Source: Chloroflexi bacterium HGW-Chloroflexi-10 (GTDB lineage: Bacteria; Chloroflexota; Anaerolineae; Anaerolineales; Anaerolineaceae). Taken from it: DNA of 64,000 nt. Location: the NCBI GenBank assembly GCA_002840755.1, contig PHBZ01000002.1, positions 124,001-188,000 on the forward strand. Direction: 5' to 3'. Below are positions 45,855 through 60,970 of the stretch, piece by piece (the stretch's first letter is position 1; the number at the start of each line of letters is the position of its first letter). Made by a program: the position numbers and the translations under genes. Below the pieces are notes generated by a model, which did no database searches, was not told where the DNA came from, and saw nothing but the letters and a program-made list of their open reading frames with translations.

Positions 45855-46724
45855 TTAAGGGAGCAATAACCAATGGTATATTGTTTTGCCTACTTTTTCC
45901 AGACTCTCACCAGAAATTTTGTCCATCGTGTCCTGACTGGTGTGCCAATAGGGGTAATCAAAATCAATTATATCGATAGCGACGATCCCTTTGTTTACGA
46001 AGGGAATGTGGTCATCTAATATTGCAAATTTAAATTCAGGAATAAAAGAATCCTCATATCCAAGGTCTTTTGCTATTGACCAAATTTCTTCTTGTAATGT
46101 CTTATCAGAATTCTTTTCATAGTAAATATTCAAATCTTTATCACCAATCATGTCCAAAATGATTACTGCATTCGGTTTCCCTGAAAGCTGATTAACAAAA
46201 CTTTGTGAACCCAAAATCCAATCCCAATTTTCTATTCTTCCTTGATCCTCTGCATCAAAAAAGACTAACCAAACATTTTTTTGAATTTCCTTTGGAAGTA
46301 CACGAGCCAGTTCCAGTAAAACCGAGACTCCGGAGGCACCATCATTGGCTCCCGGAACGGGGATTTGCTGGAAATTTGCATTGGAATCTTGGTCGGAAAA
46401 AAATCTAGAATCGTAATGAGCTGCGATTATAACCCAGGGACCATTATTGGGATCTCTTTTTGCAACAATGTTTTGGATTTTTGTTACGGATAACGTTTCA
46501 GTTTGGATCTCAGATTCCCACCCAAACTCCTCCAATTTGGTTTGTATCCAATCTATTGTGTCAGCGTGAGCCTGGCTGCCAGGTACACGAGGACCGAAAT
46601 CCATTTGATTTTGAGCAAACTGTAAAGCGGATTGTCCGTCAAACTCAATGTTTTCTGCTTTGCAAGAAGTGAGTATCAAAAGAGATGAAAAAATAAATAA
46701 TAGTTTAAAAATTGAATTTTTCAT
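45855..46724 (-). CDS. Lipoprotein M28 metallopeptidase, glutaminyl-cyclase-like
   Basis: A 289-residue exported protein. The signal peptide ends in lipobox LTSC (Cys21), so it is probably lipid-anchored. Zinc-site residues can be picked out: His in IAAHYDSRF, Asp in GANDGASG, Glu in FFDAEDQG, and the C-terminal LDDHIPF with YPYWHTSQDTMD. The ending WHTSQD and the WDWILGSQSF segment are like glutaminyl-peptide cyclotransferases, which make N-terminal pyroglutamate; a general aminopeptidase is the alternative. Its start overlaps the trmFO stop (ATGA). Confidence 0.8.
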   Translation of the reverse strand: MKNSIFKLLFIFSSLLILTSCKAENIEFDGQSALQFAQNQMDFGPRVPGSQAHADTIDWIQTKLEEFGWESEIQTETLSVTKIQNIVAKRDPNNGPWVIIAAHYDSRFFSDQDSNANFQQIPVPGANDGASGVSVLLELARVLPKEIQKNVWLVFFDAEDQGRIENWDWILGSQSFVNQLSGKPNAVIILDMIGDKDLNIYYEKNSDKTLQEEIWSIAKDLGYEDSFIPEFKFAILDDHIPFVNKGIVAIDIIDFDYPYWHTSQDTMDKISGESLEKVGKTIYHWLLLP

Positions 46725-48073
46725 TCAACTAAGCCCTTTTCTAAAAATGACTTCATTATTTGCATAGAACGGTCAGCATATGCTTTGTAGCGCTCTCGTT
46801 TAGTTTTTATTTGCATTTCCAAGGGAGGCAAGATACCAAAGTTCGCTTTCATAGGTTGAAAATCTTTCTGGTTAGCATGGGTTATGTAATGGCACAATGC
46901 CCCCACCATTGTTTCTTGGGGTAGTACCAATAGCGGCTCGTGACGAAGGTATTTTGCTAAATTAATGCCTGCAAGCAGTCCAGTAGCGATATTTCCAACA
47001 TACCCTTCTACGCCCGTTATTTGTCCTGCGAAAAAAAGATTCTGACGTCCATTCGACTGCATACTAGGTTTCAATAATTTTGGAGAAGCAATGAAAGTGT
47101 TGCGATGCATTTGACCATATCTAGCAAACTCAGCATTTTCCAGGCCAGGGATTATGCGAAATACGCGGCGTTGTTCCGGGAAGGTAAGATTGGTCTGAAA
47201 ACCAACCAAATTGTATAAATCCCCAGCAAGATTATCCTGACGCAATTGCAATATTGCAAATGGGCGTTTACCTGATCGTGGATCCTTTAAGCCAACAGGT
47301 CTTAGAGGTCCAAAAGCCATAGCCATTTCTCCGCGAGAAGCAAGTATTTCCACCGGCAAACAGCCTTCAAAAAAAAGTGGATCCCCAGCATTTACACCAG
47401 TTTCTATTTGTTTTTCAAACGATTTTAGCTGGATACGTTTGGCTTTGGTTAATTCGGATATAAACGTAATATATTGATCCTTGTCCATCGGACAATTAAT
47501 GTAATCTCCTTCGGCATCTTCATCAGAATATCTGGATGCTCGAAAAGCAATTTCAAAATTAATTGATTCGATTTGGACAATTGGAGCAATTGCATCAAAA
47601 AAATAGAGATTTTCGGTATTGGTCAGTTCGATGATTTTGGCAGTTAATTTCGCAGAAGTCAATGGTCCGGAGGCGATAATCACCGGTCCATCAGGGATTT
47701 CAATACATTCTTCACGGATGATTTTGATATTCGGATGATTTTCCAACTCATATGTGACTTTAGCCGAAAACAATTCGCGATCAACAGCGAGAGCACCTCC
47801 AGCGGGAATGGCCGTTTTATCAGCAACCTCCATAAGTTTGGATTTGAGTAACCTGATTTCGTTTTTCAAAAGACCCGAAGAACGGTCGTAAAGATTGGAA
47901 CCTAGAGAGTTCGAACAGATTAACTCAGCAAAGTTTCCTGAAATATGCGCACCAGTTTCGCGTAGTGGTCGCATCTCGTACAATTCAACATGAATATCTC
48001 GTTGCGCCAATTGCCAGGCTGCTTCACTTCCAGCTAAACCAGCGCCAATTACAGTGACACTTATATTTTTCAT
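46721..48073 (-). CDS. trmFO: Folate-dependent tRNA m5U54 methyltransferase TrmFO
   Basis: A 450-residue FAD enzyme that makes m5U54 in tRNA using methylenetetrahydrofolate. The FAD motif is VIGAGLAGSEAAWQLA (residues 8–23), followed by ELYEMRPLRETGAH and ELICSNSLGS, then the C-terminal FAGQITGVEGYVGNIATGLLAG. It is divergent from rpoN, whose promoters lie in the 95-base gap. It begins a minus-strand operon reaching to position 41832. Confidence 0.96.
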   Translation of the reverse strand: MKNISVTVIGAGLAGSEAAWQLAQRDIHVELYEMRPLRETGAHISGNFAELICSNSLGSNLYDRSSGLLKNEIRLLKSKLMEVADKTAIPAGGALAVDRELFSAKVTYELENHPNIKIIREECIEIPDGPVIIASGPLTSAKLTAKIIELTNTENLYFFDAIAPIVQIESINFEIAFRASRYSDEDAEGDYINCPMDKDQYITFISELTKAKRIQLKSFEKQIETGVNAGDPLFFEGCLPVEILASRGEMAMAFGPLRPVGLKDPRSGKRPFAILQLRQDNLAGDLYNLVGFQTNLTFPEQRRVFRIIPGLENAEFARYGQMHRNTFIASPKLLKPSMQSNGRQNLFFAGQITGVEGYVGNIATGLLAGINLAKYLRHEPLLVLPQETMVGALCHYITHANQKDFQPMKANFGILPPLEMQIKTKRERYKAYADRSMQIMKSFLEKGLVE

Positions 48074-48110
48074 GCTAACCTCATTGTTATTTTACCTTAC
48101 AAAATCTGCT

Positions 48111-48126
48111 TGGCACATAACTTGCA
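48111..48126 (+). promoter_or_regulatory. Sigma-54 promoter of rpoN
   Basis: TGGCAC-N5-TTGCA matches the -24/-12 consensus, with the GG and GC pairs exactly 12 bases apart (48112 and 48124). Initiation would fall near 48137, 32 bases before the rpoN start codon. Confidence 0.8.
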
Positions 48127-48150
48127 ACAATCACTTTGTCACGCTATACT
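48122..48150 (+). promoter_or_regulatory. Sigma-70-type promoter of rpoN overlapping the sigma-54 -12 box
   Basis: TTGCAA (48122–48127) and TATACT (48145–48150) are 17 bases apart. The -35 hexamer is made of the sigma-54 -12 element, so the two holoenzymes cannot bind at once. Confidence 0.6.
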
Positions 48151-48168
48151 TCTTTGTGAGGGATGAAC

Positions 48169-49566
48169 ATGTTCCAATTTCAGTATCAAGTCCAAAAACC
48201 TATGACGACAGCGCATCTTGCGCAAACAATGACGTTGTTGAGTCTATCTGCTTTTGAATTAAAGCAGCAAATTGAAGCTGAATTGGCAGCAAATCCGGCA
48301 CTTGAAATTGTCGAAGAGCGAAGATGTCCACATTGTCACCGATTTTTACCTGGTGGCGGATCTTGCCCGATATGTTCTCGCCCATCAAATTTGGATGTTT
48401 TGGAACCAGTTGTATATGTTTCTCCTATGGATGATTTTTACCCGAAGTCTGATTACTCCGGCGGTGAGATTCCGGACGAACCGATTTCTCCAGCTACCGA
48501 AGATCTACCAACATACGTTTTGCGACAAATCGCCACGGAATTAGACACACAGCAACAATTAATTGCTGCCCATTTATTGACAAATTTGGATGATGATGGA
48601 TTTTTGACGGTCAATCTGATGGAGGTTGCCCGCTACTTTCATATACCAGTTTCTAGGGTTGAAGCTGTTCAATTATTAATCCAACACGCTGAACCTGTCG
48701 GAGTGGGTTCAACCGGACCCAAACAAGCATTGTTGGTTCAGTTGGAAATTCTTTCAGAAACGGGAACAGTGCCGGAATATGCTTTTGAGATCATCGCTGA
48801 TTATTTGGATCTTCTAAGTCGAAGGCAGCACCCTGATATTGCCAAACATTTAGGGATCAGCGTACAACGCGTTGAGAGAATTGCCAGCTATATTGGTGAA
48901 AACTTAAACCCTTTTCCTGGAAGATCGCATTGGGGAAATGTTCGTAATCCTTCATCGGACGCTACTTCTGTATACCGGCAACCTGATGTAATTATCCAAT
49001 TTCTAAATAATGATCCGAAATCGCAGGTTGTTGTTGAAATTGTGATGCCAATGGGCGGAACTTTGCAAGTTAGCCAATTATATAAGCAGGCGATAAAAGA
49101 AAGTGAAGGCGATTCTAAAGAAGCAATGCGGGAAGATATGGATAAAGCTTCACTTTTTGTCAAATGCTTGCAGCAGCGAAACCACACCATGCAAAGACTG
49201 ATGCAGAGATTGGTGGTTATACAAAGGCCATACCTGGCAAATGGAGAAAAATTTTTAATACCAATTACACGAGCCAGCCTGGCTGAAGAATTAGGTGTAC
49301 ACGAATCGACTATTTCCAGAGCTGTTTCTTCAAAGTCTGTTCAATTACCTAACCGGAGGATCGTTCCGATGGCGGCATTTTTTGACCGCAGCTTATCAGC
49401 ACGCACAATATTACGAGAAATCATTGCAAATGAAAAAAAGCCGCTAAGTGACACAGAAATTCAAAAAAGATTAACGGAAAGGGGAATACAGGTTGCCAGA
49501 AGAACGGTAGCAAAATATCGGGCTATGGAAGGTATTTTACCAGCACATTTAAGGCAAACCATATGA
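48169..49566 (+). CDS. rpoN: RNA polymerase sigma-54 factor with zinc-ribbon insert
   Basis: A 465-residue sigma-54. Region I is Gln/Leu-rich (FQFQYQVQKPMTT ... LKQQIEAELAANPALEIVE). It is followed by a four-Cys ribbon, Cys53/56/66/69 (CPHCHRF ... GSCPICSRP), which classical RpoN lacks. The core-binding domain, the HTH-type region (ASLAEELGVHESTISRAVSSK) and the RpoN box ARRTVAKYR near the C-terminus are intact. The ATG at 48169 has GAGG seven bases upstream; an ATG two codons earlier overlaps that site. It leads an operon with the kinase and activator. Confidence 0.95.
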   Translation: MFQFQYQVQKPMTTAHLAQTMTLLSLSAFELKQQIEAELAANPALEIVEERRCPHCHRFLPGGGSCPICSRPSNLDVLEPVVYVSPMDDFYPKSDYSGGEIPDEPISPATEDLPTYVLRQIATELDTQQQLIAAHLLTNLDDDGFLTVNLMEVARYFHIPVSRVEAVQLLIQHAEPVGVGSTGPKQALLVQLEILSETGTVPEYAFEIIADYLDLLSRRQHPDIAKHLGISVQRVERIASYIGENLNPFPGRSHWGNVRNPSSDATSVYRQPDVIIQFLNNDPKSQVVVEIVMPMGGTLQVSQLYKQAIKESEGDSKEAMREDMDKASLFVKCLQQRNHTMQRLMQRLVVIQRPYLANGEKFLIPITRASLAEELGVHESTISRAVSSKSVQLPNRRIVPMAAFFDRSLSARTILREIIANEKKPLSDTEIQKRLTERGIQVARRTVAKYRAMEGILPAHLRQTI

Positions 49567-49572
49567 TAATTT

Positions 49573-51555
49573 ATGTTAAGTAACTCCTCAAATTGGCTTA
49601 AGGATGCTATTTTTGGTAAATCGCAGAATAATCAGACAACGGTTTATCGAAATATATTAAATTTGTTGCCCAACCCAGCTTGTTTAATCGATATGAGCAA
49701 CAATGTGATTGTTTGCAGTAATGCTGACTTTAATAAAATGTCTGCATATGCTGTTAATGAGTTATCTGAAATAAAAGCTGATATTTTGTTTGATTTGGAA
49801 AAAGTGAATTTAGCTGCTCCAGCAGAATTATTTTCTATTGACCTGGTGCGCCGAAATAAATTAGTGATTAATGGGTATTCATGGAAGTATTTATTAGATG
49901 ATAAAGGATATCTGGTTGTTTTAGTGTTTGTGAGTGAGCAACAATACATAGAACAACAACATTCCTGGCAAGATCGATTATTTGGAATTATGTTGGATTT
50001 GTTAAGGTTGATTGATCTTGAATCTTTAGAGGTAGCATTTCAGACTGCAATAACGAGAATTGGTACTTTTTTTGATACACCCCATGTATATATTTATCAA
50101 TCCAGAAGTGAGTATCCGGAACTAGTATTGGCAATCCGAGGAGGAAATGAAACTATATTTCCTCCAACATTGCCTATACACGAAATCAGCACAGAAAATT
50201 CTACAATGATTTGGACTCCTGGTCATAGAGTCCAGTCTGAAATACAAAAAACAGCCAGAGTTGGAAATTTGGCATATGTAGGCACAACCTTATTAGGGCC
50301 AAGTAAAGGTGCTTCGGCTATTTTGGTAATTGCTCACGAAAAAAAGCAACCCACAAAGAATTTGTCAGCTGTTTTGGATGTATTTGGATCAACATTATCT
50401 GCAGTAATGCAATATTTTATATTGGTAGGCACATTGCGTCACCGGATTATCGAGCAGGAGTTTAAGATTGCTGTTCAAAATGATATATTAAATCATGTCC
50501 AGGAAGGTATCCTGGTAGTACAAAGGGACTTAAAGATATGGACTATTAACCCCAGCGCAGAGATATTGTTAGGTTACCAGGCAAAAGAGGTGGTTGGTTT
50601 GCTTTTGGAAAATATTTTAATCGGCCCGGAGAGTCTATCACCTTTATTAGAATCTTCTAGAAATGAATTTATTTCACATCGATTGGGAATCGTCCATATC
50701 CATAGGAGAAATGGCGATGCAATGCCAGTAGAGATGAGAATCTCGCCAGTTGAACAAGATGGTCAAATCTCTGCACTACTCATTTTTTTGAGAGATGTAA
50801 GTGAAAATGAGGAAATTCGGATGAGGGCACAGCAATTAGAACACCGAGCAGTGTTGGGTGAATTCACCGCAGTATTTGCTCATGAAGTCCGTAATCCGAT
50901 CAACAATATATCAATGGGCTTGCAAATTTTATCCAGGGCATTAACAGCCGATCCGAAACAAAAAGACATGGTCGATAGAATGCTAGGTGATTGCGATCGG
51001 TTAACGCATCAAATGGAAGCTGTGTTAGCATATTCGAAACCTTTTGATCCAAAATATGAAAATGTGGATATTGGATTACTTGTTCAAAAGGTGGTCGATC
51101 GATGGAAACCCCGAATGATTCGGGTAGGGGTTAAAGACTATGTACAAAAACCAGAGCAATTACCGATTGTTTTAGCTGATCCACGCCTTTTGGAACAAGT
51201 TTTTGTAAATTTAATAGGAAATGCTGTCGAGGCGATGACTTCACAAAATACAGGGACACTAGCTGTACATATCCAGATAATTAAACAAATTGCCAGTCAC
51301 CCTCAAATTGAGGTTAAGATTATTGATAGTGGTCCAGGTATCCCCGAAGATGTTAGAGGCAGGATTTTTGAACCGTTTGTGACGACGAAAAAGACCGGTA
51401 CTGGTTTGGGATTAGCAATCAGCAAACGTATTGTTACAGCCCATAGAGGAAATATTACTGTGGAATCATACCCAGGTGGCGGTACTGTATTTACAGTCTT
51501 TTTGCCAATCAAACAAGGAGAGGAAACAGATGGGAATTACAGTTCTGATCGTTGA
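49573..51555 (+). CDS. Soluble PAS/GAF sensor histidine kinase (NtrB-type)
   Basis: A 660-residue kinase without membrane segments. Recognisable parts: a PAS-like domain (about 25–115), a GAF-like domain (about 140–285), a second PAS (about 300–415, with ILNHVQEGILVVQRDL and the VEMRISPV ending), the H-box EFTAVFAHEVRNPINNI with His437, and an ATPase domain with DSGPGIPEDVRGRIFEPF and KKTGTGLGLAISK. It lies six bases after rpoN and overlaps the activator gene by 26 bases, so it is the likely cognate kinase. It should sense a cytoplasmic signal. Confidence 0.93.
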   Translation: MLSNSSNWLKDAIFGKSQNNQTTVYRNILNLLPNPACLIDMSNNVIVCSNADFNKMSAYAVNELSEIKADILFDLEKVNLAAPAELFSIDLVRRNKLVINGYSWKYLLDDKGYLVVLVFVSEQQYIEQQHSWQDRLFGIMLDLLRLIDLESLEVAFQTAITRIGTFFDTPHVYIYQSRSEYPELVLAIRGGNETIFPPTLPIHEISTENSTMIWTPGHRVQSEIQKTARVGNLAYVGTTLLGPSKGASAILVIAHEKKQPTKNLSAVLDVFGSTLSAVMQYFILVGTLRHRIIEQEFKIAVQNDILNHVQEGILVVQRDLKIWTINPSAEILLGYQAKEVVGLLLENILIGPESLSPLLESSRNEFISHRLGIVHIHRRNGDAMPVEMRISPVEQDGQISALLIFLRDVSENEEIRMRAQQLEHRAVLGEFTAVFAHEVRNPINNISMGLQILSRALTADPKQKDMVDRMLGDCDRLTHQMEAVLAYSKPFDPKYENVDIGLLVQKVVDRWKPRMIRVGVKDYVQKPEQLPIVLADPRLLEQVFVNLIGNAVEAMTSQNTGTLAVHIQIIKQIASHPQIEVKIIDSGPGIPEDVRGRIFEPFVTTKKTGTGLGLAISKRIVTAHRGNITVESYPGGGTVFTVFLPIKQGEETDGNYSSDR

Positions 51556-52702
51556 TGATGAAGAAAATGCACGAAACAATTTGGAAACATTTTTGTCACC
51601 TTCCGGTTATGAGGTGATTGGCGTTGGAACGTTGTCTGAAGCACGCGAACAACTGAAATTAGGAAATGCTGATATTGTATTATTGGATGTTCAGTTGCCA
51701 GATGGTTTTGGTCCAAACCTTCTTTATGAAACCATGCATATACCAAACCGCCCACCGATTATTTTAATCACCGGATTTCCAGATATTGAGATCGCTGTTG
51801 AAGCTATGAGAAATGGAGCACATGATTTTTTGATTAAACCCATAAAATTGGATCAGCTTGAGCTGTCTATGCAGCGAGCTAAAGAATTGGTAGCCATGCG
51901 AAGAGAGTTAGCTATGTATCGCGATAATCAAAAAAATAGTGTTCAGTTTGTAGCTGGCTCGAGTAAAAAAATGCAATTGGTGTTGAATCAAGCGGAACGA
52001 GCTGCTCAAATGTCGGTCTCTGTATTAATTACAGGAGAAACGGGTGTTGGAAAAGATGTGTTAGCCCAATATATTCACAAGTCTGGTCCTCGCTCAAATC
52101 GACCGTTTGTTGCTATCAATTGTGCCGCAATTCAAAGTACAATGCTGGAATCAGAACTATTTGGACATGAGGCGGGTGCTTTTACCAGCGCGGATAAACG
52201 AAAAATTGGCTTAATGGAAACAGCTGATAATGGTGTTTTGTTTCTGGATGAAATTTCATCCATGCCGTTGGATATGCAAGCAAAATTATTGCGTGCTATT
52301 GAAGCAAAAAACTTTCGCAGAGTTGGTGGTAATACATTGATTAATGTGGATGTTCAGGTTGTGGCTGCCTCTAATCGCAATTTAAGACAGATGATAGAGA
52401 AAAATGAATTTAGAGAAGATTTATACTACCGTTTGAAAGTTGTAGATTTGCATTTGCCATCATTAAGGGAACGTAAAGAAGATATTCCTGAACTGGTTGG
52501 TTTTTTTATCAAAACTAAGAATGCAAAAATGGGGGTTAATATTGAGGATGTATCTACTTTGTCTATGCAGAAATTGATGGAATACAAGTGGCCAGGAAAT
52601 ATTCGCGAACTCAGTAATGCGATCGAAAGTGCCATGCTTTTTTGTGATACAGGCGTGATTGAAATGGCGGATCTACCTTATAACATCACGGAACAGTGCT
52701 AA
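51530..52702 (+). CDS. NtrC-type sigma-54 activator lacking a DNA-binding domain
   Basis: A 390-residue response regulator. The receiver domain (1–120) has phosphoacceptor Asp53 (VLLDVQLPDG). The AAA+ domain has Walker A GETGVGKD (169–176), GAFTSA (216–221; the usual motif is GAFTGA), Walker B LFLDEIS and the sensor region. The protein ends 30 or so residues after the WPGNIRELSNAIESA motif with no Fis-type helix-turn-helix, so it should activate from solution rather than from an enhancer. The ATG follows GGAGAGG. A sigma-54 promoter starts six bases after its stop codon. Confidence 0.93.
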   Translation: MGITVLIVDDEENARNNLETFLSPSGYEVIGVGTLSEAREQLKLGNADIVLLDVQLPDGFGPNLLYETMHIPNRPPIILITGFPDIEIAVEAMRNGAHDFLIKPIKLDQLELSMQRAKELVAMRRELAMYRDNQKNSVQFVAGSSKKMQLVLNQAERAAQMSVSVLITGETGVGKDVLAQYIHKSGPRSNRPFVAINCAAIQSTMLESELFGHEAGAFTSADKRKIGLMETADNGVLFLDEISSMPLDMQAKLLRAIEAKNFRRVGGNTLINVDVQVVAASNRNLRQMIEKNEFREDLYYRLKVVDLHLPSLRERKEDIPELVGFFIKTKNAKMGVNIEDVSTLSMQKLMEYKWPGNIRELSNAIESAMLFCDTGVIEMADLPYNITEQC

Positions 52703-52707
52703 AGGCC

Positions 52708-52723
52708 TGGCACTAATCTTGCA
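52708..52723 (+). promoter_or_regulatory. Sigma-54 promoter of the TPR/caspase-like operon
   Basis: TGGCAC-N5-TTGCA with GG (52709) and GC (52721) 12 bases apart, a near-consensus -24/-12 element. Initiation is predicted at about 52734, 26 bases before the next start codon. Confidence 0.85.
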
Positions 52724-52727
52724 CCAT

Positions 52728-52759
52728 ACCTCCTAATGGACTTTTTAGGAGGTTTTTTT
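52728..52759 (+). terminator. Terminator-like hairpin containing the ribosome site
   Basis: ACCTCCTAA (52728–52736) and TTAGGAGGT (52745–52753) pair perfectly and are followed by six more T. The right arm is the Shine-Dalgarno sequence of the gene at 52760. The predicted sigma-54 start lies inside the left arm, so only read-through RNA could form the full stem. Confidence 0.7.
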
Positions 52760-53074
52760 ATGGACTTTAATCAAACGTTTGTTATCCTTTCCTTAGTTTT
52801 ATTAGTTCTAGGTGCAATCTCATTTTTTTCAGGATTAATTGTGCTTTTAACCAGGGTGCTGGGGGGAGGAATAAATAAAATTGCTGCTGAAACCAAGAAA
52901 ATAGTACAAAAAGGGATTGCTGAGGAGATGGCTGGCCTTGTTGGAAACGCCTCAGTCCTTATTGAATCCGTAAATCAACTGGTAAAAACGGCAGCGGGCA
53001 TTGGCGTATTTTTAATGGTAATTGGATTGATTATGATGACGGGCGCAATAGTTCTTTTGATGAATTTGCACTAA
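52760..53074 (+). CDS. Small membrane protein, first gene of the sigma-54 operon
   Basis: A 104-residue protein with two membrane helices (about residues 5–32 and 78–102) separated by a soluble, Lys/Glu-rich loop that looks helical (GGGINKIAAETKKIVQKGI). AGGAGG lies seven bases before the ATG. I do not recognise the family. Its position between the sigma-54 promoter and the giant TPR gene suggests it anchors or senses for the other two products at the membrane; this is inference. Confidence 0.8.
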   Translation: MDFNQTFVILSLVLLVLGAISFFSGLIVLLTRVLGGGINKIAAETKKIVQKGIAEEMAGLVGNASVLIESVNQLVKTAAGIGVFLMVIGLIMMTGAIVLLMNLH

Positions 53075-53096
53075 TTGATTTTGATTGGGAGAGAAG

Positions 53097-56000
53097 ATGA
53101 ATACTTCTGAGTTTTTTAATCTCGTTTCAAATACATTTTCCCAAGTTGAAAACCGAATATTTTTAGAGTCACTCCATTTGGACTCCTATTTATGGGAAGC
53201 GGTACAGGATGTAGCCTTCTTTAAAAAAAATATTGAGAAAAATGGAAATCTATTGGTCAATTGGTCATTGGGTAAAATTGCATTATCCCTTGTAAACATC
53301 CATGAAGATATCCTATATAAATCTATTTATGAGAAACCTTACTTAAAAAAATCAATTCAAATTTATGATGCAGTCCGTGCCAGTGGCGAAATTATTGCAG
53401 ACGGTTGCGAACCTGTTTATTTGGCTTTGGCATTATTAGAAAGATTTAATAAGTTGCAAAAATGGGATGGTATTTATTATGAAATAAATTCCCATGCGAA
53501 AAGGAATAGATTTGAAGTCTATCAAAAATGGCGTACACCGTTTGCAATAGTCTATCAATGGTTGCCTAACCCTGATGATCTCATCAAAACATTACTAACT
53601 GAAATGGATGCCTTTTTAGCTATTTCCATTATTAATCACATGGTTAGTACTCAATTAACTGGTAAAAAAGAAAAAGTTCGTACTTTAAGACGTCACATTG
53701 AACAGTGCTCTTCTGATAATCAGTTGGTTTGGAATCAATTGATTTCTTCTCAAATATCCTTTTTAAAAAAAGAGTTTGCTGCAAGTATGCGCGAATTGAC
53801 GGTTTTGCAGTTGAAGCCTGTCTCAGAGTTGGTTAATGATTACTCCATTTTGACAGACACGCTAACAAAGAATTTGTATTATGCTCTTGCGAATATGATG
53901 GATGATTCTTGTGCTCAAGCAAACTCCTATTTGCATTCAGCAAAATTAATTTTAAATGATTTATTGGTATCGGTAAATTTGTTGTCAGCTCAAAATGATT
54001 TGGTGGAATCAGATCTGGACTTTTCCATAAATCCAATGCTTCAGGATGTGGTCTTTTTACGTGAAGAAAAAAACAATCAACCAGATAATGCTTTTGAAGT
54101 AAAGGGACTGGTGGTGCAACTAAAAGAATGTTTGGAAATAAAAGAAAAAGGTGAAATCGTACTCGCTAAAGAAATGGGTGGCCGTCTGTTTCAACAATGG
54201 TTTGGGCTGAGAAAAAAGAATTGGCCGGCATTTAATGAAATAGCATATTTACAAGGCTTGCAACATGAAAAGTTATTGCAGTTGCTTTTTGATTTGAATC
54301 TTTATGATTGTGTTCGTGACTATATAAATTTTTTGGATATGACACAATTATCATTGGTACCAAAAAAGCGTTTGGAGTTTTTTGAAAAGAATATTAAGAA
54401 ATTTTCACCAGATCTTTACACTGGTTTGAAATTAATATTGGTACATGATCCTGAGGATCCTTTTGCGTGGAATAGTTTACTTTTGCTTTTAGAGAACGAA
54501 AATGATTGGGAAAACCTTTATGAAGAACTGGGTAAAAAAGAAGGTGAACGGACCCTCAATTCTGTTGAACGGGTCTTATTTGCCAGATCAGCAATGGAAT
54601 CATCACATTTCGAATCAGCCAAACATAATTGCAAACAACTCCTTGAAGAGGATTATGAATTAGGAGAGGTTTATGCAATTTTAGGTGGTGTTTATTTGAA
54701 GGAAAATGATTACGAGTTAGCAAAAGAGAATTTAGAACAAGCTATAAAAATATCGCCAGAAAATTCTAACGCTTGGCTTCTTCTCTCTTCCATTCATCAA
54801 ATTGAAGGTAATGATGAAGAAGCATTATCTATTTTACGGTCATCAGTTTTAGCAGCCCCAGATTCGCCAGATATTTACTTTTCTTTATCTCAGTTTTGTT
54901 TGAAAAAGGATCTATATTCCGAAGCCTATCCTTATTTAAAAAAAGCTTTGTCTTTAGATTCAGAAAATCCGAAATATCAAATAGAATTAATAAAAATTCT
55001 AAAAACACTTGGTCGAGAAGATGAGGCCACCCAATTATTGGAAAAGGCAAGGCTCACATGGCCAGAAAATTCCGATCTGGCATATCTTGCAGCCTTAAAT
55101 TTCATTGATATTAATGATACTGAAGCTGCGCTGAACACCTTAGAAATTGCAATAACAAAAAGAACGGCAGCTCCTTATGAGTGGTATTTGCTATATGTAA
55201 AGATATTATTAAAGGATAATCCGTATCAATTATTGATATCTGATTCAAATAATCTCGGGTATTCACAATTGATTCAAGCTCAAAAATATTTACAAATTGG
55301 ATTACGAAACAATACTAAAGATCCAATTGGCCAAGAATTGTTAGCAGAGGTTTTTTATTTGGCGGGAGAGTATGAGGCAGCGCATTCGATTTATTCCACA
55401 CTTGTAAACCAAATTAAGGATAATTCTGAATGTATTGAGATAAAGTGGAAAATATTAGCTGGATTGGGTTTTTCCAAAATTGCATTGGGGGAAGTAGAAA
55501 GCGGATTGGTTGTGTTGCATGATGCAACACAAGCTAATCAAAAACATTTAGGCATTAAACATCGTTTGGCCGAAAGCTATTATGCAATTGGGTTAAATGA
55601 AGATGCCACTCGCATAGCAAATGATGCTTTCGCCAGCGCCGGGACTAATGTTGGAAACTTGATCTGGTATGCGAATTTTATGGAAACAATGGGGCGAAAT
55701 GAAGAAGTTGTCAGGGCATTGGAGCAAGCGTTACATTTTGCGTATGATGATGCTAGTTTACAAATCCGATTGGCTGGTGAATATATTTCGTTAGGGAAGC
55801 AATCCGAAGCATTTCAAGCATTAATTAGTTTGAAGGATAATCCGAAGGCTACAGCGCAAAACCATCGACAAGCTGCCATCGAGTTCTTAAGATTGTCGCG
55901 TCCAGACGCTGCCTTAGATTTTTTCCGGCGAACATTGGATATGCAAGAAAAAACTCCATCATTTTACGAAAATGTGGAATTGATTTACTTATTTATGCAA

Positions 56001-58439
56001 AATGGGGAATGGGAACAGGCAATTCATCGCATAACACAAATAATCTTAGAAAAACCGAACTTATCGGTTCTTTATGTGGTGGAAGCAGAATGTTTCCTGG
56101 GATTAGAGGATAATATTGCAGCGTTAACAGCGCTGGAACACGCTGTAGCCGTAAGAGAAAAAATTGCCATGGATATTTTACCAACGGGTTTTCTTGTTCC
56201 ACAGGATTGGATTCAGAAATATGAACAGATAGATTCTGTTTATTTGCAAATTGCCGAGATTGTTTATGAACAAAAAGATATTAATCGGTGCATTCAATTT
56301 GTTGAAATGGCATCCAAACAAAATCCGGAAAACATTCAATACAAGGTTATTCTTACAGATCTTGCGCTGCAATTATTAGATTATGACCAGGTTAATCAAT
56401 ATCTATTGACGATTTCTAATCAATTAATTAATTATACTGAAAGTAGTATCATTTTTAGTTTGGTCTCCGGGATGGATTATGTCCAATCTTATTTTTGTGG
56501 ACGAGAGATAAAAAATTTTATAAATAAAAATGATGCCGGCTACCCTGTGTCTGATTTGTTGCAGGTGTTATGGTTGTTAGATAAAAACCAATTCAATCAA
56601 GCGTCTGTTTTAATTAAGGAGCTTTCAACGGTTGATTCAACAATTACAAATTTACAGATCAGTGAAAAGTATCCTGCTTTACTGAAACGGGCACAAACAA
56701 ATATTATATATAGACTGATTGTGTTGGCGTACATGCGCATGGTGCAATACCCTGAGGCTGAAGAATTTTTAGATCGTTGGGAAGCTCAGAGTTTAGTTAA
56801 CTTTGAGACAAAGTTTTACAGATATGTGCTTAAGTTAGAGCAAACCAATTTGCAAAATATATATTTGGAATTAGGTTTAAGTGCGAAGCGATATACGCTA
56901 AAGCAAACAATGCCTCTTGATGTGATTCTTGACCAATTAAATTCATATGCTGAAAAATTGGGAAAATCAAAAATTATAAGTCAATTTGAAACAATTCAAA
57001 ATGCATTATTTTCCGGAAATATTGCAAGAGCACAATCTCTTTTGTATTCACTCCAAATTCCACGCGGATTTAAATACCCTTTGGCTGATTTTCTTATGAG
57101 AAATCAAGCTGGGTCTTCCGTGGAACAATATTTAGCCACCTTTGATGGAACAATTATTGATCGGCTCGTGTTTTCATATCATCAAAAAGAAAAATTTGGA
57201 CATTTAGCAATCGCATCATTGGAAAATATTTCTTTTTTAGATCATCCTGTTATTAATGCAATGATTTCAAAATGCTATGAATCTATCGACAATTTAGATG
57301 AGGCAGTTGCTTATGCACAAAAAGCATTATTGATCTGGCCTAACGAGACCAATTGGTTGGTAAGGTACGCTTCTTTATTAGAAAAGAAGGGATTAATTGA
57401 TCTAGCGCTTGAACAATGGAATTTGATAGTTGAGTGTTCAGAAAATAAGGAACAGGTCATTTATACTTATTTTTCTTTATTGATTAAATTACAAGAGTAC
57501 CAGTTGATCCTGGAAAAACTGGATAAGTACAAAAAACAGCTATACGGTTCGTATAATTATTATTTTGCTTATTTACAAGCCAGCTACGGCCTGAAAGCTT
57601 ATGATCAGGCATTACGTGCAGCGAGTGCAGCAAAAAAAGTAAATCCGGATAAGAAAGAAGTTATCCTAATTGAGGGAAAAATATATTATGAGACTCAGCA
57701 TCTAGAGAGAGCAAAGCAAAATGCTGAAGCCGTTTTGCAATCGGAACCAGAAAATGAAGAGGCTTATTTACTCTTGACCGCCGTCCTAGAGGAAAACGGC
57801 ATGTTCAATGAGGCACTTAATGTAGTAAATAAGGGTATTGAACATTGCCCGGATAGTATTCAGTTATATATTAATAAAGTCTGGATTTTGCGTTCGGCGG
57901 GATTTACAACTGAAGCACTTGCATTAGCTTCCCAATTGAGTGTTAATCACCCTGATCAGGGAGAAATTATTGGATGCCTGGCGATACTATATAACGACCT
58001 GAATGATCTAAAAAGCGCTGAAGAAACTGCTAGGAAGGCATTAAAGGTAAATCCAGATCAAGCGGAGATACAGTTATTATTGGGAAAGATCATAAAAAAA
58101 CATGGTCATTTAGACCAAGCACTGAACTTTTTTGTAAAAGCATCAAACCAAACCACCGAATCTTCTGAACCCTGGCTGGAGATGGGTGAAATATATGAAG
58201 ATCAGGAAGATTTGTCCAAAGCAATGGAATCTTATCATATGGCGATAAAAGCAAACGCCAAAGATTATCGTGCTTACCTTAAAGTCGGAATGTTGCTAAA
58301 AGAAATCAAAGATTATCAAGGTGCAGAACAAATGCTACACATGGCCGTGGAATTAAATCCAAAGGACGCCAATATTCGCAGACAATTGGCTGGAGTAACA
58401 GCTCTTAGTTTCGTGCATAGCCCTAAGGAGGCAAAATAA
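53097..58439 (+). CDS. Giant TPR-repeat protein
   Basis: A 1780-residue soluble protein without signal peptide. Residues 1–510 are helical without clear repeats. Three TPR blocks follow at about 520–690, 730–1010 and 1385–1778, with repeats such as AILGGVYLKENDYELAKENL and LEMGEIYEDQEDLSKAMESY. The gap near 1010–1385 is also helical and less regular. TPR arrays bind partners and peptides, so a scaffold or sensor role is likely. The ATG follows GGGAGAG; it ends in TAATG, overlapping the protease gene. Lys-, Asn- and Ile-rich codon use matches the AT-rich neighbourhood, with no sign of transfer. Confidence 0.9.
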   Translation: MNTSEFFNLVSNTFSQVENRIFLESLHLDSYLWEAVQDVAFFKKNIEKNGNLLVNWSLGKIALSLVNIHEDILYKSIYEKPYLKKSIQIYDAVRASGEIIADGCEPVYLALALLERFNKLQKWDGIYYEINSHAKRNRFEVYQKWRTPFAIVYQWLPNPDDLIKTLLTEMDAFLAISIINHMVSTQLTGKKEKVRTLRRHIEQCSSDNQLVWNQLISSQISFLKKEFAASMRELTVLQLKPVSELVNDYSILTDTLTKNLYYALANMMDDSCAQANSYLHSAKLILNDLLVSVNLLSAQNDLVESDLDFSINPMLQDVVFLREEKNNQPDNAFEVKGLVVQLKECLEIKEKGEIVLAKEMGGRLFQQWFGLRKKNWPAFNEIAYLQGLQHEKLLQLLFDLNLYDCVRDYINFLDMTQLSLVPKKRLEFFEKNIKKFSPDLYTGLKLILVHDPEDPFAWNSLLLLLENENDWENLYEELGKKEGERTLNSVERVLFARSAMESSHFESAKHNCKQLLEEDYELGEVYAILGGVYLKENDYELAKENLEQAIKISPENSNAWLLLSSIHQIEGNDEEALSILRSSVLAAPDSPDIYFSLSQFCLKKDLYSEAYPYLKKALSLDSENPKYQIELIKILKTLGREDEATQLLEKARLTWPENSDLAYLAALNFIDINDTEAALNTLEIAITKRTAAPYEWYLLYVKILLKDNPYQLLISDSNNLGYSQLIQAQKYLQIGLRNNTKDPIGQELLAEVFYLAGEYEAAHSIYSTLVNQIKDNSECIEIKWKILAGLGFSKIALGEVESGLVVLHDATQANQKHLGIKHRLAESYYAIGLNEDATRIANDAFASAGTNVGNLIWYANFMETMGRNEEVVRALEQALHFAYDDASLQIRLAGEYISLGKQSEAFQALISLKDNPKATAQNHRQAAIEFLRLSRPDAALDFFRRTLDMQEKTPSFYENVELIYLFMQNGEWEQAIHRITQIILEKPNLSVLYVVEAECFLGLEDNIAALTALEHAVAVREKIAMDILPTGFLVPQDWIQKYEQIDSVYLQIAEIVYEQKDINRCIQFVEMASKQNPENIQYKVILTDLALQLLDYDQVNQYLLTISNQLINYTESSIIFSLVSGMDYVQSYFCGREIKNFINKNDAGYPVSDLLQVLWLLDKNQFNQASVLIKELSTVDSTITNLQISEKYPALLKRAQTNIIYRLIVLAYMRMVQYPEAEEFLDRWEAQSLVNFETKFYRYVLKLEQTNLQNIYLELGLSAKRYTLKQTMPLDVILDQLNSYAEKLGKSKIISQFETIQNALFSGNIARAQSLLYSLQIPRGFKYPLADFLMRNQAGSSVEQYLATFDGTIIDRLVFSYHQKEKFGHLAIASLENISFLDHPVINAMISKCYESIDNLDEAVAYAQKALLIWPNETNWLVRYASLLEKKGLIDLALEQWNLIVECSENKEQVIYTYFSLLIKLQEYQLILEKLDKYKKQLYGSYNYYFAYLQASYGLKAYDQALRAASAAKKVNPDKKEVILIEGKIYYETQHLERAKQNAEAVLQSEPENEEAYLLLTAVLEENGMFNEALNVVNKGIEHCPDSIQLYINKVWILRSAGFTTEALALASQLSVNHPDQGEIIGCLAILYNDLNDLKSAEETARKALKVNPDQAEIQLLLGKIIKKHGHLDQALNFFVKASNQTTESSEPWLEMGEIYEDQEDLSKAMESYHMAIKANAKDYRAYLKVGMLLKEIKDYQGAEQMLHMAVELNPKDANIRRQLAGVTALSFVHSPKEAK

Positions 58440-60970
58440 TGCAAAACAGCACACTCTCTCACGGACAAACATTGAGTCGCGGAACGGTTATCCAGTTACT
58501 TATCTCTTCACTGCAACATAAAAAAATAATATTTGGCCGTCAATTAGCTTTGAAATGGCTAGGATCATTTCCTGGGGATCTGGTTGTTGAACTTTTCCTA
58601 GCGCGCTTTTATTTATATGAAACCAAAGTTGAAAAAGCCATTGAGCTTGTTGAGCAAATTTTAATAATTGACCCGGAGTTCCAGGAAGCTTATGATTTTT
58701 TAGCTCAGTTGCCAATTTCTGATGCTAAAAAGGAGGAGTGCTTAGCTTGTTCTCATGCATTAGGTGGGTTAGTACAAAATAAACGATCCTTGCCATCCTG
58801 GAGCCCAGCATTACATGCCGTTCAAAATTCAATTGCTAATGAAAAAATTGAAGATGCTTCCGAATTAATTTTTAGGATTTTATCCATTCAAAAAGAGATT
58901 CCATTAATCCATATTGTCCATTTGCGAACAGTTTACCTGAACCAGGATATTAATTCGATTTTAAATCTGGTTGAACTTTATTATCAAAAATGGCCTGAAA
59001 CCCTTGCATTCAAATTGATTCTAGCAGAACAATTATTGGAGGTTGGTGAAGAAGAAAAAGCTGTAAATTTATTACATGATTGTGTATCCAAGGATTCTGC
59101 CGGACAAGTTGCTAGAAAATGGTGGGGTGATCAACATGTGTTTTTGCCATTATGGCCAGAGCGAATGGAGATCTCTTCAGAGTTGCAAGTGCCTTTGGAG
59201 GTTGCTTATGATTTGGGTTGGAATAGGCTGCCTGAAGGAAAAATAGAAGAAGCGATCAATAACGATTCGGATCTAATGGAACCCCATGAAAATTTTGCAG
59301 AAATTCCATCATCTGACTTTAGAATAAGATCAGAAATTGGGATCGAAGTACAGAAAGAGTTTGAAAGAATCGCAAAAAAATTAAAAAAAGATTTTTCCGG
59401 AAAATTGGATGGGCGTTTTCCGTGTTATGTAATATTCTCTACAAAAACCGGTTTGATAAAAAAATATGGTGAGCAAACTTACAAGATAGTTATTCAATTG
59501 TTATCCCAAATGAGACTTATTATTCAAAGCAAACCTGGTTGGGATTGTTTTTTGTTCATACCTGATGATGAAAATACTCAAAAAGCTATCAACTTGCCTG
59601 TAGTAACTTCAATTGATCCTGCAAAGTTAAAAAAAGCTATCTTTGATTTGGATAGGGGGCTTTCTAAACGCGGTGAACGTATAGGCGCAATGTTAATTGT
59701 TGGTGGGGATGAAATTGTTCCGTTCCATAGGTTGCCAAATCCGACAGATGATATGGATGAAGAAATATATTCAGACAATCCTTATGCAACCATTGAAACC
59801 AACTATTTTGTTCCTGAATGGCCTTTAGGACGGATAATCGGTGAAAAAGGACAGGATGCCGGGCTCTTAATTCAACAAATCAGAGGCATCATAAAATACC
59901 ATACCCAACCTAAGTCGGTTCGTCAGTTGTGGGAAAGAATTTATCGGACTTTTAATCTTGTTTTGAAACCGACATCATTACCCAGTTTTGGTTATTCTGC
60001 ATCTGTTTGGAAAAGATCATCGATGGCTGTGTATCGAACGATAGGCGATCCTAATAAATTAACTATTTCTCCAAATGGAAATAAACAAACATTAAAACAA
60101 CAAGACTTTACTCAAAACGACTTAAATTATTTCAACTTACATGGAATGATAGATCGATCTGAGTGGTATGGACAACGAGATCATTTAGATCCTCCAGGCG
60201 TAGATTATCCAGTGGCTGTAACACCTGGCGATTTAATTCAAAACGGGAAATCACCAAAAATTGTTTTTACTGAAGCATGTTATGGTGGACATGTATTTGA
60301 TAAACTTGAAAATGAATCAATAGCCTTAAAATACCTGGCAATAGGGACGCCAATATTCATTGGATCCACCTGTACATCATACGGTTCTGTGAATACACCA
60401 CTTATCGCTGCTGATTTGTTGGCAAAATATTTTTGGCAATACATTCACGAAGGTTGTTGGGCTGGCGAGGCATTGCAACGCGCAAAAATTTCTTTGGTAC
60501 AGGAAATGATGAAACGGCAAGGTTATCTTGATGGAGAGGATCAAAAAACTTTGATTCAATTTGTTTTATATGGTGATCCCTTCTTTGCCTATGAAGTAAA
60601 AGATGTTCAGAAAAAAAGGTTTAACATGCTTTCACAGCCAGCAAAAATTAAGACAATATGCGATATCGAATCGACAGAACTTAATTCGCTTACCATAAAC
60701 CCTGAAATGATGGCGCAAGTAAAAGCAGTTTTACAGCCCTATTTGCCAGGAATTGACCACGCATCTGTCAAATTGACTCAATTACAGGTGGGCATAGATC
60801 GTAGTTCCAAGAACAAAGATAAGACACCGTATGGTTTAAAAACTATCAAAGACAAAGTTGTAGTAAATATTCAAAATCCAGTTCAAATAAATAAAACGCG
60901 ATATTTCCAATTTGCCAGGGTTACAGTCGATTCTAAAGGTAATGTAATGAAGATGACCGTATCGCGGTAA
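58439..60970 (+). CDS. TPR-like protein with caspase-fold (C25/CHAT-like) protease domain
   Basis: An 843-residue protein. Residues 1–260 look like degenerate TPR helices; a linker follows, then a clan CD-type protease domain at about 330–730. The catalytic dyad is placed at His568 (YFNLHGM) and Cys614 (FTEACYGGH), 46 residues apart, followed by GTPIFIGSTCTSYG, GEALQRAKISL and FVLYGDPFFAYE, an arrangement shared by gingipain-like and CHAT proteases. There is no signal peptide, so unlike secreted gingipains it is cytoplasmic. Residues 740–843 form a separate C-terminal domain. It is translationally coupled to the giant TPR protein, its likely partner. Confidence 0.8.
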   Translation: MQNSTLSHGQTLSRGTVIQLLISSLQHKKIIFGRQLALKWLGSFPGDLVVELFLARFYLYETKVEKAIELVEQILIIDPEFQEAYDFLAQLPISDAKKEECLACSHALGGLVQNKRSLPSWSPALHAVQNSIANEKIEDASELIFRILSIQKEIPLIHIVHLRTVYLNQDINSILNLVELYYQKWPETLAFKLILAEQLLEVGEEEKAVNLLHDCVSKDSAGQVARKWWGDQHVFLPLWPERMEISSELQVPLEVAYDLGWNRLPEGKIEEAINNDSDLMEPHENFAEIPSSDFRIRSEIGIEVQKEFERIAKKLKKDFSGKLDGRFPCYVIFSTKTGLIKKYGEQTYKIVIQLLSQMRLIIQSKPGWDCFLFIPDDENTQKAINLPVVTSIDPAKLKKAIFDLDRGLSKRGERIGAMLIVGGDEIVPFHRLPNPTDDMDEEIYSDNPYATIETNYFVPEWPLGRIIGEKGQDAGLLIQQIRGIIKYHTQPKSVRQLWERIYRTFNLVLKPTSLPSFGYSASVWKRSSMAVYRTIGDPNKLTISPNGNKQTLKQQDFTQNDLNYFNLHGMIDRSEWYGQRDHLDPPGVDYPVAVTPGDLIQNGKSPKIVFTEACYGGHVFDKLENESIALKYLAIGTPIFIGSTCTSYGSVNTPLIAADLLAKYFWQYIHEGCWAGEALQRAKISLVQEMMKRQGYLDGEDQKTLIQFVLYGDPFFAYEVKDVQKKRFNMLSQPAKIKTICDIESTELNSLTINPEMMAQVKAVLQPYLPGIDHASVKLTQLQVGIDRSSKNKDKTPYGLKTIKDKVVVNIQNPVQINKTRYFQFARVTVDSKGNVMKMTVSR

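Follow-up and report, generated by a model that had tools for sequence, protein, structure and literature searches.

A Shine-Dalgarno hairpin split by a predicted sigma-54 start site in an Anaerolineaceae bacterium and its relatives: a probable translational safety catch against read-through

Layout of the locus and its leader

In Chloroflexi bacterium HGW-Chloroflexi-10 (Anaerolineaceae), an operon encoding sigma-54, a histidine kinase and an activator is followed, in the same direction, by an operon that includes a putative protease, which raises the question of how the second operon could be kept silent if RNA polymerase enters it from the first. The stretch of DNA analyzed here, referred to as the window, comprises 64,000 nt (positions 124,001 to 188,000, forward strand, of contig PHBZ01000002.1, assembly GCA_002840755.1), and the features discussed are listed in Table 1.

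Table 1. Features of the regulator operon, the leader and the protease operon (window coordinates).
Feature	Position	Strand	Basis or remark
rpoN promoter: sigma-54 site (48111-48126) overlapping sigma-A-type promoter TTGCAA-17-TATACT (48122-48150)	48111-48150	+	likely source of read-through
rpoN (sigma-54)	48169-49566	+	Pfam Sigma54_DBD, CBD, AID
PAS histidine kinase	49573-51555	+	
NtrC-type sigma-54 activator, receiver and AAA+, without DNA-binding domain	51530-52702	+	
Sigma-54 promoter, -24/-12 elements TGGCACTAATCTTGCA, near-consensus	52708-52723	+	read directly; precedes the same gene in 110 genomes
Hairpin left arm (anti-SD) ACCTCCTAA	52728-52736	+	covaries with right arm
Predicted sigma-54 transcription start, nominal +1 at 52734	52733-52736	+	inferred from fixed -12 to +1 geometry; unmapped
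Hairpin right arm TTAGGAGGT, SD inside	52745-52753	+	covaries with left arm
Shine-Dalgarno (SD) GGAGG	52748-52752	+	columns invariant in alignments A2 and A3; 7 nt to ATG
T7 run, terminator-like tail, lineage-specific	52753-52759	+	TTTT in 13/33 genera and 6/6 sequences of own genus
First gene of controlled operon, 104-aa membrane-type protein without known family	52760-53074	+	found in 125/147 family genomes
TPR-repeat protein, ~1780 aa	53097-58439	+	Pfam TPR matches
TPR and clan-CD (gingipain/separase-like) protease, 843 aa	58439-60970	+	invariant residues and structure model; activity inferred

Two strict sigma-54 sites are present in the window, one of which, TGGCACTAATCTTGCA at 52708-52723, fulfils the definition of a sigma-54 promoter (TGGCAc-N5-TTGCa with fixed spacing, together with rpoN and an activator in the genome) and has its -12 C at 52722. 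The arms ACCTCCTAA and TTAGGAGGT form a 9-bp stem with a loop of 8, and the ATG of the first protease-operon gene is at 52760. A previous sequence-only reading of this DNA had described both arms, the SD in the right arm and the T-run, all of which proved exact on direct reading; the start that it placed at about 52734, 12 bases past the -12 C and inside the left arm, agrees with sigma-54 geometry, the start being inferred and unmapped. Translational coupling from the activator stop codon (52700-52702) was considered and judged unlikely; the stop ends 25 nt ahead of the left arm.

The gene order rpoN, kinase, activator, membrane protein, TPR protein, protease was kept across the family. The activator belongs to the class without a DNA-binding domain, with no C-terminal HTH and a protein end directly after the AAA lid domain, and no other protein encoded in the 6.57-Mb genome matched Sigma54_activat strongly (234.5 bits for the activator; at most 33 bits for six others). 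Because this lone strong activator lacks a DNA-binding domain and sits inside the rpoN operon, the genes under sigma-54 seem to form one self-contained module.

No Pfam or NCBIfam match was obtained for the protease part of the protein encoded at 58439-60970. Residues H568-G569 and C614 were invariant among 15 homologues. A model of the whole-length protein returned TPR matches only, whereas the C-terminal part modelled alone gave a protease fold: the model of residues 310-725, of moderate confidence (pLDDT 72.8, pTM 0.80), matched gingipain K in a Foldseek search (E 2.4e-9), as well as gingipain R, separase and TPR-CHAT/SAVED-CHAT proteases. By its motifs and predicted fold, the product qualifies as a clan-CD cysteine protease, with proteolytic activity inferred.

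The hairpin among relatives

The window alone provided little support for a special structure. Its hairpin was the best terminator-like site within 46000-60000, terminator-like sites as a class were not enriched in that interval (9 found versus 10.6 expected from shuffles), and the fold of this one leader alone was unexceptional (z -1.56). Single-sequence evidence is weak, or only suggestive, and significance rests on comparison.

Leaders were collected via a profile of the 104-aa protein, whose gene was found in 125 of the 147 family genomes. A sigma-54 site just 5' of the gene and the activator just upstream were present at 125 loci (110 genomes, 33 genera), yielding 99 distinct promoter-to-ATG sequences; many of the compared genomes are probably metagenome-assembled. 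Nearly all 99 leaders contained a hairpin with its left arm across +1 and its right arm holding the SD. The arm sequences differed widely, with ACCTCCTAA/TTAGGAGGT in the window, GTTGCCTCCCGA/TCGGGAGGCAAC in L055, TCCCATC/GATGGGA in L050, CCTTCC/GGAAGG in L032 and AGTAACT/AGTTACT in L043.

Arms from the same genome paired with a mean of -15.7 kcal/mol, compared with -9.8 when arms were swapped between genera; 5000 arm permutations gave a mean of -10.2, and none went beyond -11.1 kcal/mol. When one sequence per genus was used (33 sequences), the values were -16.7 for own arms and -12.3 for shuffled arms. In the MAFFT alignment A3 (47 sequences), an 11-pair helix had 89.9% of its cells paired versus 76.5 ± 1.0 after shuffling, and its covariation was 0.394 versus 0.172 (0/500 shuffles), with 77 doubly changed cells; helices slid along the same alignment as controls reached a covariation of at most 0.098. 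The promoter-anchored alignment A2 agreed with A3. Pairs facing the SD varied almost solely from C-G to U-G, in line with an SD that is not free to change, and the double changes sat in the flanking pairs.

On the evidence of these alignments, the conservation of the hairpin is not a matter of chance. The sequence-only reading had staked its case on relatives keeping the complementarity of the arms and the distance to the promoter; complementarity was kept through compensatory changes, and the promoter offset was kept too. Clear SD pairing was missing in 11 of the 99 leaders under a strict test, and leaders without a clear hairpin include L037, L115, L116 and L123. Genus g112 (L176, L178, L179, L181 and L182) has a compact form, with about 40 nt from promoter to ATG, a tiny loop and short stems such as AATATCTC/GAGATATT, at an unchanged offset.

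The occurrence of the hairpin was compared across sigma-54 promoters and gene arrangements. It was found in none of 15 rpoN sigma-54 promoters and in none of 27 ftsZ-paralogue sigma-54 promoters, which rules it out as a general property of sigma-54 promoters in family genomes. Where the gene lies next to the activator, the hairpin was present in 88% of f1 leaders and in all six of family f5, and the other activator-adjacent cases were mixed (f11, 1/3; f15, 1/4; f8, 0/2). Families f8, f9, f13 and f14 include loci at which this gene and a sigma-54 promoter occupy another genomic site; a strong duplex, defined as -9 kcal/mol or better, occurred in 2 of 20 such cases. At these relocated operons, open frames by themselves left the orientation of the upstream gene ambiguous, and it was excluded from the evidence. 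Genus g4 has no sigma-54 site between activator and gene, a gap of about 25 nt and no hairpin. These presence and absence controls indicate that the hairpin of f1 and f5 goes together with an operon that both has its own promoter and lies inside a read-through path. Comparison thus established a predicted RNA helix in a fixed register to the sigma-54 promoter, present in the read-through context and absent at other sigma-54 promoters.

The g4 loci lacking promoter and hairpin are L068, L069, L070, L177 and L185-L187; in L068-L070, the protease gene directly follows the 104-aa gene, without the large TPR gene between them. At two f14 loci outside the family (L042 and L266), where the operon lies elsewhere, a terminator-like hairpin without an SD straddles the sigma-54 start, a different solution from the SD hairpin.

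Register, release and rival readings

In read-through RNA, 88 of the 99 sequences had four or all five SD bases paired. Of these 88, 69 had the SD partner centred on position -2, counted from the start as +1 (interquartile range -2 to -2). This register puts the anti-SD immediately ahead of the start, in DNA that polymerase opens but transcribes little or not at all. With 5' ends between -60 and -12, the computed median cost of opening the SD was 12-13 kcal/mol; it was 9.5 at -5, 5.6 at -3 and 3.4 kcal/mol at +1, reaching 2.7-3.0 kcal/mol for 5' ends at +2 to +6, with the drop falling at -5 to -1. The conclusion is insensitive to a shift of the start by a few bases.

For the window, opening the SD was computed to cost about 12 kcal/mol in read-through RNA versus about 4.8 in sigma-54 RNA, in which the upper stem persists and the SD is 0.21 unpaired. 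Release by the sigma-54 start is, by computation, partial: the earlier description of sigma-54 RNA as free was right in that this RNA is much freer and went too far in that it is still structured. Two of the features that define a promoter-split SD hairpin are supported, as the helix sequesters the SD on upstream-started RNA (opening cost, covariation) and, by sigma-54 geometry, the dedicated start, which is inferred and unmapped, removes the left arm; the entry of transcription from upstream and the translational repression of the long RNA, which also belong to the definition, are inferred.

A source of read-through can be proposed from the promoter of the upstream operon. A conserved sigma-54 site also belongs to the rpoN operon (48111-48126 in the window) and in 27 of 40 relatives overlaps a sigma-A-type promoter with 15-17 nt spacing, the sigma-54 box doubling as the -35 hexamer; only 1 of the 99 protease-operon promoters showed such an overlap. 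This dual arrangement suggests that sigma-54 polymerase competes with the housekeeping polymerase on rpoN. The overlapping sigma-A-type promoter also makes it likely that sensor, activator and sigma factor are supplied at a basal level, and hence that polymerase travels toward the protease operon, both being inferred. Induction of the rpoN sigma-54 promoter would make part of the read-through coincide with induction of the protease operon, which counts against a lock. In the dual promoters, examined in the window and at the rpoN loci L031-L070, the -12 box supplies the -35 element as TTGCAA; in other families the -24 box supplies it as TGGCAC.

We consider it highly probable, on comparative and computational grounds and without mapped 5' ends, expression measurements or structure probing, that the leader acts as a safety catch on translation that guards against read-through and is released when the operon's own promoter is used. 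Polymerase entering from the rpoN-kinase-activator operon would transcribe both arms, and the left arm would pair with the SD of the first protease-operon gene and block ribosomes; in the genus of the window, the T-run probably also stops part of the read-through transcription. Upon activation of the NtrC-type protein by the kinase, sigma-54 polymerase would start about 12 nt past the -12 C, within the left arm, leaving most of the anti-SD untranscribed and the SD largely exposed, so that the operon could be translated. The sequence-only reading had likewise held that the sigma-54 start splits the hairpin, silencing read-through RNA and releasing sigma-54 RNA, and the compensatory changes and kept offset support it, the effect on translation being inferred. 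Also inferred are the occurrence of read-through, the precise start site, how strongly translation is affected, the benefit (no leaky protease synthesis) and the very low background that had been claimed.

The structure could instead simply be the intrinsic terminator at the end of the rpoN-kinase-activator operon, abutting the next promoter and SD by chance, with termination as the selected function. The window satisfies the definition of an intrinsic terminator, a stable stem followed by a T-run, and resembles known examples in its GC-containing stem and T7; the 9-bp stem with T7 is the region's best terminator-like site, no other lies between the two operons, and all six distinct own-genus sequences have the TTTT tail. 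However, the T-run is not conserved with the hairpin. TTTT between SD and ATG was found in 39 of the 99 sequences and 13 of the 33 genera and is missing from the other 60 sequences and 20 genera, while the stem keeps on co-varying. The SD-containing arm and the register to +1, neither of which a plain terminator requires, are the conserved parts, the SD lying in the right arm in every case. Termination as the selected function is accordingly unlikely in our assessment. Given a TTTT tail in no more than 13 of the 33 genera, termination can be no more than something added locally, and the conserved function is hiding of the SD; the earlier designation as an intrinsic terminator fits the window, with its stem and T7, and, as judged from the TTTT tail, its genus, but does not extend to most genera.

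An inverted repeat across a start site is also a common operator layout, and the arms might be a DNA site bound by a repressor or activator. This reading was rejected on the complete turnover of arm sequences between genera (L043, L050 and L055) and the variable loop lengths; moreover, the SD-facing pairs drift to G-U, which RNA tolerates and which breaks DNA symmetry, and the activator of the operon has no DNA-binding domain. We give it almost no credence. Scarcely more plausible is a regulated switch of the read-through RNA (a thermometer, or a ligand or small-RNA target) in place of a constitutive lock. Heat, a ligand or another RNA can in principle open any SD hairpin, and the sequence does not exclude this, but opening would cost about 12-13 kcal/mol and the alignments contain no conserved loop motif. 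In addition, g4, without an intervening sigma-54 promoter, is also without the hairpin, and this joint absence implies that the hairpin serves the promoter arrangement.

Known systems and the sigma-54 module

Hairpins of this kind are classical in T4-type phages. In T4 gene e (lysozyme), and also in soc and gene 49, RNA started upstream hides the SD and a late promoter inside the structure releases it, with an approximately 100-fold effect for gene e (PMC3014915). The T-even genes for I-TevI, I-TevII, I-TevIII and segB, as well as Aeh1 mobE, form an SD hairpin only in early/middle read-through RNA, the position of the late promoter preventing the hairpin in these homing endonuclease leaders (PMC2988022). 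In its predicted behaviour, the present leader resembles that of gene e: the SD is hidden on upstream-started RNA, a dedicated promoter starting in or after the left arm gives translatable RNA, and both would serve to prevent read-through from yielding a harmful product. It differs in using sigma-54 and an ATP-dependent activator instead of a phage late sigma factor (gp55) promoter, and in its bacterial chromosomal setting, fixed register and covariation over 33 genera; the homing endonucleases, for their part, are phage mobile elements with other promoters and genes. By analogy, the leader would work like the gene e type; there is no evidence of common descent, and none is expected given the other promoter class and genes. 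In IS10 and IS50, transcripts that enter from outside promoters fold so that the transposase SD is hidden, and those from the inside promoter do not, but these are mobile elements with sigma-70 promoters.

Within the collection of papers searched, there was no report of SD sequestration at sigma-54 promoters, nor of a promoter-split SD hairpin kept by compensatory evolution across a bacterial family. Promoter-split SD hairpins themselves are already known; the novelty here lies in the coupling to sigma-54, in a register that is fixed, in the occurrence in bacteria and in the evidence from evolution. Sigma-54 activators without a DNA-binding domain, such as FlgR and CtcC, have been described (PMC7175178). 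The activator shares with them a receiver and AAA+ domain and the lack of an HTH, and differs in being encoded with its own rpoN and kinase, with its target operon directly downstream.

Further sigma-54 sites were sought genome-wide by pattern searches, not promoter scoring, and most other strict matches in the genome fell inside genes. The family genomes searched mostly carry two ftsZ genes, one of which has a sigma-54 promoter about 40 nt 5' of its ATG in 27 of 30 loci (L268-L296, and L217/L267 at G000 contig C29:69670-70809, minus strand). A sigma-54-controlled second FtsZ would be unusual. Sigma-54 itself was present in only some Chloroflexi in an earlier survey (PMC3162934).

On balance, and with more reserve than for the catch itself, we favour a class of start-split RNA locks shared throughout this bacterial family, the constant spacing between the -12 element and the start setting the anti-SD in the melted, untranscribed region. 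One short element would thereby combine near-zero leak with strong induction of the TPR/clan-CD protease operon; the module around it, self-contained through its rpoN, kinase and activator, would drive a second ftsZ as well. If true, this would explain how a protease operon with the potential to do harm can lie directly beside a regulator operon, in the same direction, without leakage; it would also represent a compact low-leak promoter design and provide a sequence signature with which read-through-insulated operons could be found elsewhere. For the biology of Chloroflexota, the finding points to a dedicated sigma-54 programme comprising a protease, a TPR scaffold and a second FtsZ.
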